From: Pseudonocardia sediminis
GTDB taxonomy: Bacteria > Actinomycetota > Actinomycetes > Mycobacteriales > Pseudonocardiaceae
Length of the DNA: 64,000 nucleotides
Direction: 5' to 3'
Assembly (NCBI RefSeq): GCF_004217185.1
Contig: NZ_SHKL01000001.1
Coordinates: 2,254,001 to 2,318,000, forward strand
Below are positions 3,559 through 9,692 of this stretch, piece by piece (position 1 is the stretch's first letter; every line of letters starts with the position of its first letter). Position numbers and translations under genes: made by a program. A model generated the notes under the pieces. The model saw nothing but the letters and a program-made list of their open reading frames with translations. It made no database searches and was not told the DNA's origin.

Positions 3559-5835
<2,277 letters not shown>

Positions 5836-5854
5836 TCCGAGCACTTCCACCGAT

Positions 5855-5881
5855 GGGCCTCTCCCGCGCCGGGAGGGGCCC
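5855..5881. terminator. GC hairpin after mdh
   Basis: GGGCCTCTCCCG and CGGGAGGGGCCC form a stem of about 12 bp (one T-G pair) with a 3-base loop, starting 19 bases after the mdh stop. There is no long T tract, as is usual for actinobacterial terminators. Confidence 0.75.
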
Positions 5882-5954
5882 TTCGGTCTGTGTGCCGGTG
5901 GGTCGTCGGCCATCTCGCCGTTGCGGGCGCCGGGTTCCTGCCGGATCTCCGTCA

Positions 5955-6161
5955 GTGGTGGTGGCCCAGGAGACGACGGCCCGGCCGTCGGCGCGGACCG
6001 GGGGCGCGGACCGGGGGCGCGGACGAACGGACCCGGTGATCGCCGCACACGGAGAGATCCCGGATCTGGTCGACGAGGACCCGCCGCCGCTGTCCGCCGA
6101 CGAGATCCCACAGCTCCCGGGGGAACCCGGTTCCGGGCTCGCCGAGAAGGACGGCGCATAG
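5955..6161 (+). CDS. Possible small acidic protein (doubtful)
   Basis: A GTG-started frame of 68 residues ends in PDLVDEDPPPLSADEIPQL...AEKDGA. It is acidic and protein-like in its second half, but the first half contains a 13-bp tandem repeat (5997-6022) and low-complexity Arg/Gly. There is no clear ribosome site and no recognised family. It could be a small gene, a remnant, or chance in GC-rich DNA. The rest of the 5882-6223 gap holds nothing else I can support. Confidence 0.2.
   Translation: MVVAQETTARPSARTGGADRGRGRTDPVIAAHGEIPDLVDEDPPPLSADEIPQLPGEPGSGLAEKDGA
5997..6022. repeat. 13-bp tandem duplication
   Basis: accgggggcgcgg occurs twice without a gap, at 5997-6009 and 6010-6022, in the gap between mdh and the HNH gene. 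Confidence 0.8.
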
Positions 6162-6223
6162 CCGGGGACGTGCCGTGCCGGGCAGGGGCTGAACGTGGTG
6201 CAGCCGAACCGGAGACGGCCCGT

Positions 6224-7624
6224 TCACCGACGTTGCAGGCCGAAGAGGTCGTCGAGGTTCGCGACGCGGACGCCGCCGGACCTGCGCGCAGGCTCCGACC
6301 TCGTCGCATCGGACGGCGTCTCCCGCCGCTGACCCGGAATGCTGATCATCGCGGGCTGTCGGCGTGGTGTCCGGCTGGGGTCGATCCACGCCGGTGGGAG
6401 GAACTCGGGTAGCCCGTCGCGGATGCGGACGTCCCACCCGGGGTGGTGGATCAGCCGGTGATGTTGTCGGCAGAGCATCACGAGGTTGTCGATCTTCGTT
6501 TCGCCGTGTTCTTCCCACGGGATGACGTGGTGGACCTCGCACCACGACGGCGGCCGGTCGCAGCCCGGGTGGGCGCAGCCGCGGTCCCGGGCGATGACCG
6601 CGCGGCGGAGACCGTCGGGGATTGTCCGGGTCGCCCGGCCCACGTCGAGGGGCTGACCCTTCCCGTCAAACACGATGGGGATGACCGCGGAGTCACACGC
6701 CATCATCCGCAACGTTTCCGCGGAGGTGCGCCCACCGAAGTCCAGCATCCCGGTCTTGGCGCGCTTCTCCAGATCCTCCAGGGAGATGATCACCGAGATC
6801 TGCGGGCGACGCCCACCCGTCTCGGGAACCAGCCCCGCGGGACCGTGCGATAACGCGTAAGCGCACACCTCGGCCAGGGCCTCGGCCTGGCGCTGCGCGG
6901 GCTCGCGGGTCTCGTCTGACGACGTCGGCTTGGACTTGGCGTCGATCACCGTGGCGATGGTGTCGAACATGGCCGCGTCGTCGAAACGCCCGGTGATCTT
7001 CCCGCCCGGCCGGTTGCGGTGCCGCACGATCCGCAGCTCGTTGACCTCCGGCTCCGGCCGGTCGTCATCGGGCTCGGGACCGTCCTGGTCCAGCTTCTCG
7101 ACCAGCGCAGTGCCCCACACCTGCAGCTCGTTCGGCGTGTACTCGCAGGACTTGGCGCCGATCTGCGCTTCCGCGGCGGACCACACCTCGGGCGTGAGCC
7201 GCTCCGCGGCGCGGGTCGCCAGGACCTTCGCCACGACCTCGACATGACGCAGGCTCGTGCGACCGGCGTCGAACACCTCGGCGGTGGCGGGCAGCCGCGG
7301 AGGTAGGACGGTGCCGTCCAGAGCGGTCCTGCCCACCACGTTCTCCGCGGCCATCACATGGCGGCGGGCCTCGAACCGCTCCCAGCCGAGAAGATCGGAC
7401 AACGCAGAAGCGCTGTTCTTGTAACCGCGCGAGGTGAACACATCCCGCCGCTCGGCACCGGCGAGGACCCCGACAGAGAGGTTATCGAGGCGCCGCCGCG
7501 CGGCTTCGCAGGCGATGAGCACGTTGATCTGCTCGGTGTCACTCGCGCCCAGGGTGGCGGCGCGGAGTTCTTCGACGGCCTCGATGAGGCGGTCGTGCGC
7601 TGCGGCGACCCGGCCGGTGGACAT
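6224..7624 (-). CDS. DUF222-HNH endonuclease domain protein (13E12 repeat family)
   Basis: This 466-residue protein has the two-part architecture of the actinobacterial 13E12 family: an alpha-helical DUF222 domain (about residues 30-300) and a C-terminal HNH nuclease motif. The HNH part reads CAHPGCDRPPSWCEVHH, then IPWEEHGET, NLVMLC and HHRLIHH, giving the zinc cysteines and the catalytic His/Asn/His. Such proteins are abundant and often multicopy in Mycobacterium and Pseudonocardiales. Their role is not settled, although links to DNA damage and to integration sites have been reported for mycobacterial REP13E12. The ATG at 7624 follows directly after a near-perfect LexA box, so expression is probably DNA-damage induced. 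Confidence 0.93.
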   Translation of the reverse strand: MSTGRVAAAHDRLIEAVEELRAATLGASDTEQINVLIACEAARRRLDNLSVGVLAGAERRDVFTSRGYKNSASALSDLLGWERFEARRHVMAAENVVGRTALDGTVLPPRLPATAEVFDAGRTSLRHVEVVAKVLATRAAERLTPEVWSAAEAQIGAKSCEYTPNELQVWGTALVEKLDQDGPEPDDDRPEPEVNELRIVRHRNRPGGKITGRFDDAAMFDTIATVIDAKSKPTSSDETREPAQRQAEALAEVCAYALSHGPAGLVPETGGRRPQISVIISLEDLEKRAKTGMLDFGGRTSAETLRMMACDSAVIPIVFDGKGQPLDVGRATRTIPDGLRRAVIARDRGCAHPGCDRPPSWCEVHHVIPWEEHGETKIDNLVMLCRQHHRLIHHPGWDVRIRDGLPEFLPPAWIDPSRTPRRQPAMISIPGQRRETPSDATRSEPARRSGGVRVANLDDLFGLQRR

Positions 7625-7637
7625 GCCTCCATCATAC

Positions 7638-7652
7638 TCGAACGCATGTTCG
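7638..7652 (-). promoter_or_regulatory. LexA/SOS box in front of the HNH gene
   Basis: TCGAAC-GCAT-GTTCG reads as the actinobacterial SOS box (consensus TCGAAC-N4-GTTCGA), with only the last base off. It is centred about 21 bases upstream of the ATG at 7624, where LexA would cover the core promoter. Confidence 0.8.
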
Positions 7653-7718
7653 TATCAAGACCTGTCATCGCAGGTAGGAGGCCGTTTGTCGCCACGACGG
7701 AAGCTGCTCATCGGAACA

Positions 7719-7753
7719 CCGAACGCCCCTCCAGGTCCCAGAGGGGCGTTCGG
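7719..7753. terminator. Perfect 13-bp hairpin
   Basis: ccgaacgcccctc (7719-7731) and gaggggcgttcgg (7741-7753) pair perfectly around a 9-base loop. It lies downstream of treZ and upstream of the HNH gene, both on the reverse strand, so it most likely ends the trehalose operon. Confidence 0.75.
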
Positions 7754-7891
7754 GTGAGCTGCGCTCGGACGGCGATCATCGTCTCCGGCTCGGCGCCGAC
7801 CGGGGCGCTGCCCCGGATCGCCCACGCCCGCGGCGACGACGATCAGAGCCACTGGAGGTCGCCCGCGGGCTGGTCTGAGGGTCGACCCGGG

Positions 7892-7945
7892 CTCAGGCGC
7901 CGACCTGGTCTCGGGCGCCGATCTTGTCTCAGGCGTCGATCTGAG
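7892..7945. repeat. 18-bp x 3 tandem repeat over the treZ stop codon
   Basis: Units ctcaggcgccgacctggt, ctcgggcgccgatcttgt and ctcaggcgtcgatctgag lie end to end at 7892, 7910 and 7928. The last one holds the treZ stop (7929-7931) and final codons. The outermost copy again supplies an in-frame TGA, a backup stop 12 codons further on. Confidence 0.85.
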
Positions 7946-9692
7946 CGATGGCGAAGGCCTCGCCGGGGACGGTGAAGCTGTCCTCACGGCTCTGCGTCGG
8001 TTCGGACGCGAGCAGGATCCGGGTGATCACCGCGCCGAGAGAGAGCGTCACCGGCTCGGGGCCGAGGTTGACCACCACCCGCAGACGGCCGCGGTTGACC
8101 ACCAGCGTGCGGGCCTGCTCGTGCACGTCGACGCCGATCGAGTCCAGCCACGGGTCCGAGAGCTCCGGCCACGTCTTGCGCAGCCGGATCAGCTCCTGGT
8201 GCATCCGCAGCAGGGTCGTGTGCGGCTCCTGCTCGGACTCGGCCCAGTCGAGCTTCGAGTCCAGGAACGTGTTCTCCGCGTTCGGGTCCGGGACCTCCTG
8301 CCCGCCCGCGGTGGCCGCCCAGCCGTGGTCGGCGAACTCCGCGGTACGCCCGGTGCGGACGGCCTCGCGCAGCTTCGGGTCCGGGAAGCAGGAGAAGAAC
8401 TGCCACGGCGTCCGCGCACCCCACTCCTCGCCCATGAACAGCATCGGGGTGAAGCCGGAGGTGAACAGCAGCGCCGCCCCGCACGCCATCAGGCCGGGGG
8501 ACAGGGTCTCGGTGAGCCGGTCGCCGGTGGCGCGGTTGCCGATCTGGTCGTGGTTCTGCAGGTAGGTCACGAACCGGGTGCCCGGGATCTTCCCGGTGTC
8601 GACCGGGGCCCCGTGGCTGCGCATCCGGAACGTCGACCAGGTGCCCTCGTGCAGGAACCCGCGGGTCAGCACCTGCGCGAGCCCGTTCAGACCGGCCTCG
8701 GCGAAGTCGGCGTAGTACCCCTGCGACTCGCCGGTGAGCACCGCGTGCAGGCAGTGGTGGATGTCGTCGGTCCACTGCGCGTCGAGACCGTAGCCGCCGC
8801 CCTCGCGGGAAGTGATCAGCTTGGGGTCGTTGAGGTCGGACTCGGCGATCAGCGACAGCGGACGGCCGGTGTGCGCCTCCAGGGCCGTCACCTCGACTGC
8901 CAGCTGCTCCAGGACGTGCTGGGCGCGGGTGTCGCGCAGCGCGTGCACGGCGTCGATCCGCAGGCCGTCGACGTGGAAGTCGCGCAGCCACATCAGGGCG
9001 TTGTCGATGACGTAGCGGCGGACCTCGTCGGAGTGCGGCCCGTCCAGGTTCAGCGAAGGGCCCCAGATGTTGCGCCCGGCGAAGTAGGGACCGAAGCGGT
9101 CCAGGTAGGCGCCGGAGGGACCGAGGTGGTTGTAGACGACGTCGAGAACGACGCCGATCCCGCGGGCATGCGCGGCGTCGACGAAACGCTTGAACGCGTC
9201 CGGGCCGCCGTAGTTCTCGGTGACGGCGTACCAGCCCACGCCGTCGTAGCCCCAGTTCCGCGGGCCGTCGACAGCGTTGACGGGGAGCACCTCGACCAGG
9301 TCGATGCCGAGCGCGACCAGGTGGTCGAGGCGCCCGATCGCGGCGTCGAACGTGCCCTCGTCGGTGAACGTGCCGATGTGGCACTCGTAGAGCACCGCGC
9401 CGGCGAGCGCCCGCCCGGTCCACTTGTCGTCGGTCCACCAGAACGCGTCCTGGTCGTAGCGCCGCGACGGCCCGTGCACGCCCTCGGGCTGCGACAGCGA
9501 GCGCGGGTCGGGCAACGGCGTCGGGTCGTCGTCGACGAGGAACGCATACGTCGTGCTGGGGCCGTTGTCCTCGATCTCGGCGCGCCACCAGCCGTCCTCA
9601 CCGCGGTCGAGGCGGTACCGGTCGCCGTCGACGAGCGCGGTGACCTGCCGACGGTCGGGTGCCCACACGGCGTAGTCGGTCACGAGGGACAT
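7929..9692 (-). CDS. treZ: Malto-oligosyltrehalose trehalohydrolase
   Basis: The 587-residue GH13 enzyme releases trehalose from malto-oligosyltrehalose, the last step of the TreX-TreY-TreZ route. It has an N-terminal carbohydrate-binding/E-set region (about residues 1-95) and the GH13 motifs DVVYNHLGPSG, GLRIDAVHAL (nucleophile Asp), AESDLNDP (acid/base Glu) and QNHDQIGNR. The length is normal for TreZ. The start at 9692 lies seven bases after the treY stop, so it is the last gene of the glgX-treY-treZ operon. The stop lies in an 18-bp tandem repeat. Confidence 0.96.
   Translation of the reverse strand: MSLVTDYAVWAPDRRQVTALVDGDRYRLDRGEDGWWRAEIEDNGPSTTYAFLVDDDPTPLPDPRSLSQPEGVHGPSRRYDQDAFWWTDDKWTGRALAGAVLYECHIGTFTDEGTFDAAIGRLDHLVALGIDLVEVLPVNAVDGPRNWGYDGVGWYAVTENYGGPDAFKRFVDAAHARGIGVVLDVVYNHLGPSGAYLDRFGPYFAGRNIWGPSLNLDGPHSDEVRRYVIDNALMWLRDFHVDGLRIDAVHALRDTRAQHVLEQLAVEVTALEAHTGRPLSLIAESDLNDPKLITSREGGGYGLDAQWTDDIHHCLHAVLTGESQGYYADFAEAGLNGLAQVLTRGFLHEGTWSTFRMRSHGAPVDTGKIPGTRFVTYLQNHDQIGNRATGDRLTETLSPGLMACGAALLFTSGFTPMLFMGEEWGARTPWQFFSCFPDPKLREAVRTGRTAEFADHGWAATAGGQEVPDPNAENTFLDSKLDWAESEQEPHTTLLRMHQELIRLRKTWPELSDPWLDSIGVDVHEQARTLVVNRGRLRVVVNLGPEPVTLSLGAVITRILLASEPTQSREDSFTVPGEAFAIAQIDA

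Follow-up and report, generated by a model that had tools for sequence, protein, structure and literature searches.

A candidate LexA operator in the promoter of a DUF222-HNH gene

The window analysed here, a 64-kb stretch of the Pseudonocardia sediminis genome, carries on its minus strand (6224..7624) a gene for a DUF222-HNH (13E12-type) protein of 466 amino acids, flanked by a treZ-like and an mdh-like gene (both names are our own reading of the predicted proteins). The assignment is based on the open reading frame and on Pfam, in which the protein matched DUF222 (PF02720) with 101.2 bits (cut-off 24.4) and a C-terminal HNH domain with 29.2 bits (cut-off 21.4), placing it in the 13E12 family; these were the only domains recognised. 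Inspection of the upstream region confirmed the original prediction that an SOS box stands just ahead of the ATG of this gene: forward-strand positions 7638-7652 read TCGAACGCATGTTCG (TCGAAC-GCAT-GTTCG), a palindrome located 13 bp from the start codon (7624-7622, minus strand). In the orientation of the gene the box, aCGAACATGCGTTCGA (7653-7638, minus strand; ACGAAC-ATGC-GTTCGA), agrees with the actinobacterial LexA box TCGAAC-N4-GTTCGA at 11/12 positions, the sole mismatch being the outermost base, and it is conserved in orthologues.

The box is embedded in what appears to be the core promoter. Reading towards the gene, a -35-like hexamer TTGATA (7658-7653, minus strand), which shares one base with the box, is followed by the box itself (7653-7638), a single G, a -10-like hexamer TATGAT (7636-7631), GGAGGC and the ATG, such that the 16-nt spacer of a promoter-like TTGATA-16-TATGAT arrangement is filled by the SOS box. 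With 6 nt between the end of the -10-like hexamer and the ATG, the mRNA of the window gene is probably leaderless, as judged from this geometry; GGAGG could act as an alternative ribosome site if transcription starts elsewhere. A terminator-like perfect inverted repeat of 13 bp (7719..7753), located between treZ and the DUF222-HNH gene, divides the promoter from treZ. Hairpin-like repeats that differ in sequence are also present in several short mdh-treZ gaps of relatives (L248-L254). A second conserved stretch, around CTGCGACGA (window positions 7660-7694), precedes the box at a constant distance in most of the Pseudonocardia copies. Rfam returned no match within 5800-8000, and comparison by eye with the PafBC motif as given in the accessible part of PMC8151990 showed no oriented match.

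LexA boxes across the genome and its DUF222 genes

Both contigs of the genome (6.61 Mb) were scanned for the box. In the 64-kb window alone, four sites with up to one mismatch were present relative to 1.47 expected, a number reached in 9/100 shuffles; the window box is therefore meaningful because of the genome-wide excess and its identical position in all six near-identical copies of the gene, and not because of the window statistics. Genome-wide there were 35 perfect CGAAC-N4-GTTCG sites, compared with a single site for the reversed pattern used as a control, and the genes nearest to some of them are dinB, ruvC, uvrC, dnaB and a recN-like gene (SMC_N match below the cut-off, AAA_23 above it). 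DUF222 genes hold 11 of the 35 sites and are the largest single class among those identified, part of the 35 having been assigned. A single LexA (LexA_DNA_bind plus Peptidase_S24) is encoded in the genome, and two one-mismatch boxes are located upstream of lexA. With a promoter box above chance and a matching LexA in the same genome, the window gene is a candidate member of the LexA regulon. Two perfect-core SOS boxes, at G000:C2:20812 and G000:C2:84531, are carried by the second contig, which is 110 kb long and possibly a plasmid.

Pfam gave 20 DUF222 matches in the genome, which were grouped into 16 genes, six of them forming a clade that includes the window gene, in keeping with the expectation of a multicopy family. 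A search of every copy for the same box, as the original prediction had suggested, found it at the gene start with no more than one mismatch to TCGAACN4GTTCGA in 14/16 genes, the remaining two having 2 and 3 mismatches; a perfect-core box was present in 11/16. In every copy of the six-gene clade the box lies 13 bp ahead of the ATG, including one (L019:2647-2889, C1:2434292) that is interrupted by an internal TGA after 80 codons and retains the box, whose middle differs (ACAC). Seven other DUF222 genes (C1:1436156-1438078 and six similar genes) have the ATG inside the SOS box (TCGAACGC-ATG-TTCGC), so that operator and first codons share bases, with a -10-like hexamer immediately upstream. Broken members also occur among these ATG-in-box genes, one being frameshifted after 132 amino acids (L025) and one shortened (L028).

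These two operator geometries recur in relatives, many of which have the start codon inside the box where the window gene instead has the box ahead of it. They were counted in 64 distinct promoters of frames with a simple HNH-like pattern, drawn from 84 rows, some of which were reverse-strand artefacts. Where the start lies 28-30 bp after the beginning of the box, a TANNNT hexamer was present 6-7 nt ahead of the start in 44/47 promoters, and where the start lies inside the box, TANNNT was present at a fixed place ahead of it in 16/17, relative to an upstream background of 0.0004 per position. In both geometries the start codon follows the -10 hexamer as it does in leaderless genes. The LexA motif of Mycobacterium tuberculosis, given in the accessible part of PMC4181829 as MKWMTCGAAMRYWTGTTCGA (...RYWTGTTCGA), carries WTG at the start-codon position and would fit the start-inside-box geometry; this is our reading of the motif and not that of PMC4181829.

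Conservation of the box in relatives

Loss of the box from orthologues, named at the outset as evidence that would speak against LexA control, was not borne out in Pseudonocardia, the genus that holds the closest copies among the named relatives: 14/15 of its loci had a box with no more than one mismatch. Across the named-genome set as a whole (the best 80 of 199 confirmed stretches, including the near-identical pairs L079/L080 and L081/L091), such a box was found near the start at 22/80 loci, relative to 1/846 control windows of equal width from the same loci; besides Pseudonocardia these were Mycobacterium (3/3), Zhihengliuella (2), and Saccharothrix, Frankia and Geodermatophilus (1 each). 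In the genus set, 39/49 loci had a box with at most one mismatch compared with 1/1078 control windows. Five genus loci at first had no box within two mismatches; a wider look, which revealed a perfect box at one of them (L209), brought the count at that threshold to 45/49, leaving four loci (L189, L195, L197 and L212) with no box found, a two-mismatch site 189 bp upstream of L197 being left uncounted. The named-genome and genus sets are not independent, since some loci are on the same contigs (e.g. L185 = L074, L209 = L084, L210 = L083).

More widely, a draw across the phylum contained DUF222 in 33/80 genomes, and a box with at most one mismatch was present in 14/29 loci relative to 1/212 control windows, a count that used the longest frame per locus and may be wrong in some rows. 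At the level of the order a box with no more than one mismatch was found in 8/26 loci, counted without control windows on 26 of the 29 loci from outside the P. sediminis genome (L181-L183 were left out). Alignment of orthologues indicated conserved half-sites, with drift in the N4 and in the more distal upstream sequence. LexA control does not appear to be universal, as four of the 49 genus loci have no box and the best site in Microbacteriaceae loci is mostly at background level. Four Cryobacterium loci (L114, L120, L132 and L136) share a conserved non-SOS stretch (TTGACT...ATTCGAAGTCATTTAC) upstream of DUF222, at the place that the LexA box occupies in other genera; this suggests that the DUF222 genes of this genus may be under different control.

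A predicted DNA-binding domain ahead of an HNH nuclease domain

The HNH nuclease domain of the window protein (residues 334-407; 6404..6625, minus strand) was delimited by Pfam, alignment and structure matches. Among 36 relatives, His366, Cys355 and Cys385 are invariant and Asn380, His389 and Cys350 are conserved in at least 90%. The domain matches IscB, EcoKMcrA and Cap5, and matches in PHROGs, NCBIfam and PADLOC were likewise limited to the HNH region. The full-length structural model had a mean pLDDT of 72; it was good over residues 1-180 and over the HNH domain and disordered at the C-terminus, and residues 1-190 modelled alone reached a pLDDT of 93. Residues 42-180 (7085..7501, minus strand), with a helix-turn-helix at about residues 71-96, form a predicted helical domain that most resembles the DNA-binding domain of ParB, Noc and KorB: these proteins account for 14 of the first 15 rows of a VIA-align search (Z 6.6-8.9; best Z 8.9, rmsd 2.4 over 103 residues), and Noc was the best Foldseek match of the N-terminal model (E 0.023). 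For neither model did Foldseek against the PDB give a match with an E value of 0.001 or lower. The fold match is moderate, and in view of the tool's own warning that such Z values may represent a common helical arrangement, we grade it as likely that the modelled residues 42-180 are a ParB/Noc-like DNA-binding domain placed ahead of the HNH domain. Behind a variable linker, a C-terminal motif RVANLDDLF (residues 453-461; 6242..6268, minus strand), identified from the alignment of the copies and the model, is kept in the six-copy clade; its ANLDDLF part might be read as a putative clamp-binding motif.

Concerted evolution of the copies

The six copies share a repeat unit that in the window extends from the stop codon to approximately 70 bp upstream of the ATG (6224..7694, minus strand). 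The units are 87-92% identical, have sharp edges and unrelated flanks, and contain the DUF222-HNH gene and its promoter and nothing else. Four of the six positions are common to P. sediminis and Pseudonocardia sp. KRD291. Identity between copies within a genome is 86.8-92.1% in P. sediminis and 89.3-93.7% in KRD291, compared with 80.1-83.0% between positional orthologues. At the window position dS is 0.70 in the DUF222-HNH gene versus 0.18 in mdh and 0.22 in treZ, and over the copies at shared positions it is 0.50-0.70 versus 0.18-0.22 in flanking genes. The higher identity within than between genomes, together with the raised dS, indicates that copies at fixed places were replaced or homogenised after the species split. 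Between copies of one genome dN/dS is 0.04-0.08 (the broken copy was included with its stop codon skipped), and the protein is under strong purifying selection.

Relatives were found in 57/60 genus genomes, with 0 to 27 matches per genome. The mdh-treZ interval is no longer than 600 bp, and so too small to hold a DUF222-HNH gene, in 24/60 of these genomes (counted by eye; genomes with larger gaps are outside this count), and the site is occupied by a copy of the gene in P. sediminis and in two other genomes (G096 and G117). Carriage as phage or plasmid cargo was also considered and rejected: matches occurred in 2/50,697 phage records and 6/72,556 plasmid records, none covering 80% or more of the protein in one place and all below 60% identity. 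The link to repair or element mobility that had been raised from the sequence is hence upheld in part, by the concerted evolution and the empty sites, while phage or plasmid carriers are almost absent.

Relation to known systems

The 13E12/DUF222-HNH family is common in actinobacteria, M. tuberculosis included, and, according to the accessible text of PMC13061034 (a preprint), is without a defined biological function. The mycobacterial LexA control of 13E12 genes that the original prediction mentioned is in print for M. tuberculosis, where these genes are placed in the LexA regulon (PMC5005354 and PMC4181829, as far as their accessible text goes); five putative HNH endonucleases of this species respond to mitomycin C in a RecA-dependent manner (accessible part of PMC8151990), and REP13E12 loci are described as gene-conversion hotspots (PMC13061034, likewise in part). 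LexA control of DUF222-HNH genes is thus already known in M. tuberculosis, and the window gene is a further case. The M. tuberculosis regulon members (Rv0515, Rv1702c, Rv3074 and Rv3776) resemble it in the box TCGAAC-N4-GTTCGA, in being multi-copy 13E12/HNH genes and in conversion between copies, according to the same partly accessible sources (PMC5005354, PMC4181829, PMC13061034), whereas the Pseudonocardia copies are a distinct clade and the box of the window gene is ahead of the start codon and not over it. The window protein shares the HNH fold and catalytic residues with EcoKMcrA, IscB and Cas9-type nucleases, but the similarity is limited to the HNH domain and no EcoKMcrA-like or guide-RNA parts were matched. 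Its predicted helical fold (residues 42-180) likewise resembles the ParB/Noc/KorB DNA-binding domain, from which it differs in being fused to HNH and in having a sequence identity of about 10%.

Among the literature matches listed there was none that treats DUF222 together with SOS, no report of a LexA/SOS-box DUF222 gene in Pseudonocardia and none of a ParB-like domain in DUF222. As far as searched, several points go beyond print: this control extends over many actinobacterial families, its operators come in two geometries, the protein has a likely DNA-binding fold, concerted evolution is seen in a second genus, and a sister subfamily, described below, carries an SSB-like tip. The fixed geometries, the predicted DNA-binding domain, the concerted evolution and the tip turn a vague association into testable claims: what is cut, when, and whether cutting drives conversion of the enzyme's own copies.

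Proposed mechanism and alternative explanations

We consider it probable, at approximately 0.85, that the box is a LexA operator in the core promoter of a multi-copy nuclease gene that is opened by DNA damage and encodes a two-domain enzyme. In the undamaged cell a LexA dimer would sit over the -35/-10 spacer and block RNA polymerase; following DNA damage, RecA filaments would stimulate self-cleavage of LexA and the promoter would open, probably yielding a leaderless mRNA. In the resulting protein the predicted ParB/Noc-like domain would pick the DNA site, and the HNH domain, whose catalytic residues are intact, would cut or nick the chosen DNA. Direct LexA control, as originally claimed, is well supported by the core-promoter box, by its near-universal presence in paralogues and orthologues and by the M. 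tuberculosis precedent, all of which is support at the level of sequence.

Several explanations of what such a nuclease is for can be weighed. It may be an ordinary host nuclease for SOS repair or DNA processing, in which case conversion between copies would be a by-product of repeat homology; this is quite plausible though it falls somewhat short of even odds. Strong purifying selection, the chromosomal location of nearly all copies, a box common to repair genes and the presence of an SSB-like tip in the sister subfamily argue for such a role, and a mismatch-repair-like function has been proposed for the M. tuberculosis members (accessible part of PMC4181829); a copy number of 0 to 27 matches per genus genome, at intergenic sites that are empty elsewhere, would nevertheless be unusual for core repair. 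Alternatively, and in our view rather unlikely, the gene is selfish and homing-like: an SOS-induced nuclease would cut chromosomal sites, either other copies or unoccupied sites, and their repair by recombination would copy or convert the gene; SOS control would in this way couple its spread to the moment of active repair. The sharp-edged unit of promoter plus gene alone, the empty mdh-treZ sites in 24/60 genus genomes relative to the occupied sites, the higher identity of copies within genomes (87-92% and 89-94%) relative to the 80-83% of positional orthologues, the dS raised over that of the flanks and the hotspot status of REP13E12 loci in M. tuberculosis (PMC13061034, accessible part) are consistent with this, but passive gene conversion between repeats also yields concerted evolution, and a dN/dS of about 0.05 points to a function that benefits the host.

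It is improbable that the gene encodes a suicide or defence nuclease that is triggered by damage and breaks down the DNA of the host or of phages. The M. smegmatis HNH protein MSMEG_1275, likened here as an HNH protein, cuts DNA and kills when overexpressed (PMC9416677, accessible part), and the HNH domain of the window protein resembles those of EcoKMcrA and IscB, but the locus showed neither an immunity partner nor defence neighbours and PADLOC gave one weak match (E 0.00086) limited to the HNH domain. A chance palindrome or the operator of another repressor, for which the lack of significance of one-mismatch sites in the window alone could be cited, is very improbable and was set aside given the genome-wide excess, the position shared by copies and by orthologues across the genus and the named genomes, and the presence of this box at known SOS genes.

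Returning to a LexA-controlled two-domain nuclease, a more far-reaching proposal, which we regard as doubtful as a whole, is that these proteins are SOS-coupled, sequence-guided nucleases that draw on recombination repair by the host, overwriting and spreading the unit of promoter and gene that encodes them, the ParB-like domain picking the site and HNH cutting while RecA is active, with the SSB-like tip (DDPPPF) of one subfamily placing the enzyme on SSB-binding repair proteins. If true, this would account for the 13E12 family being both LexA-controlled and a gene-conversion hotspot.

An SSB-like C-terminal tip in a sister subfamily

The C-terminal tip of SSB is a docking peptide for repair proteins (PMC5872125, whose accessible part concerns the interaction in general). 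The two typical SSBs of P. sediminis end in ADDEPPF and DDEPPF, and a third SSB-like protein is without such an end. The window protein ends in LFGLQRR and does not have an SSB-like tip; in a sister subfamily, 5/13 aligned DUF222 proteins of the same genome are DUF222-HNH proteins that end in DDPPPF (L023:1357-3213, L024:1360-3273, L026:28-2187, L027:163-2145 and L065:139-2196). At the level of the order, 12 of 26 loci had a PPF end and one had PAPF. For a filtered count, only frames of at least 150 codons, with a third-position GC above 0.8 and not truncated at a locus end, were retained, and frames identical over their last 60 residues were counted once; PPF tips were then present in 12/151 DUF222 frames compared with 1/933 other frames, the latter being the genome's own SSB.
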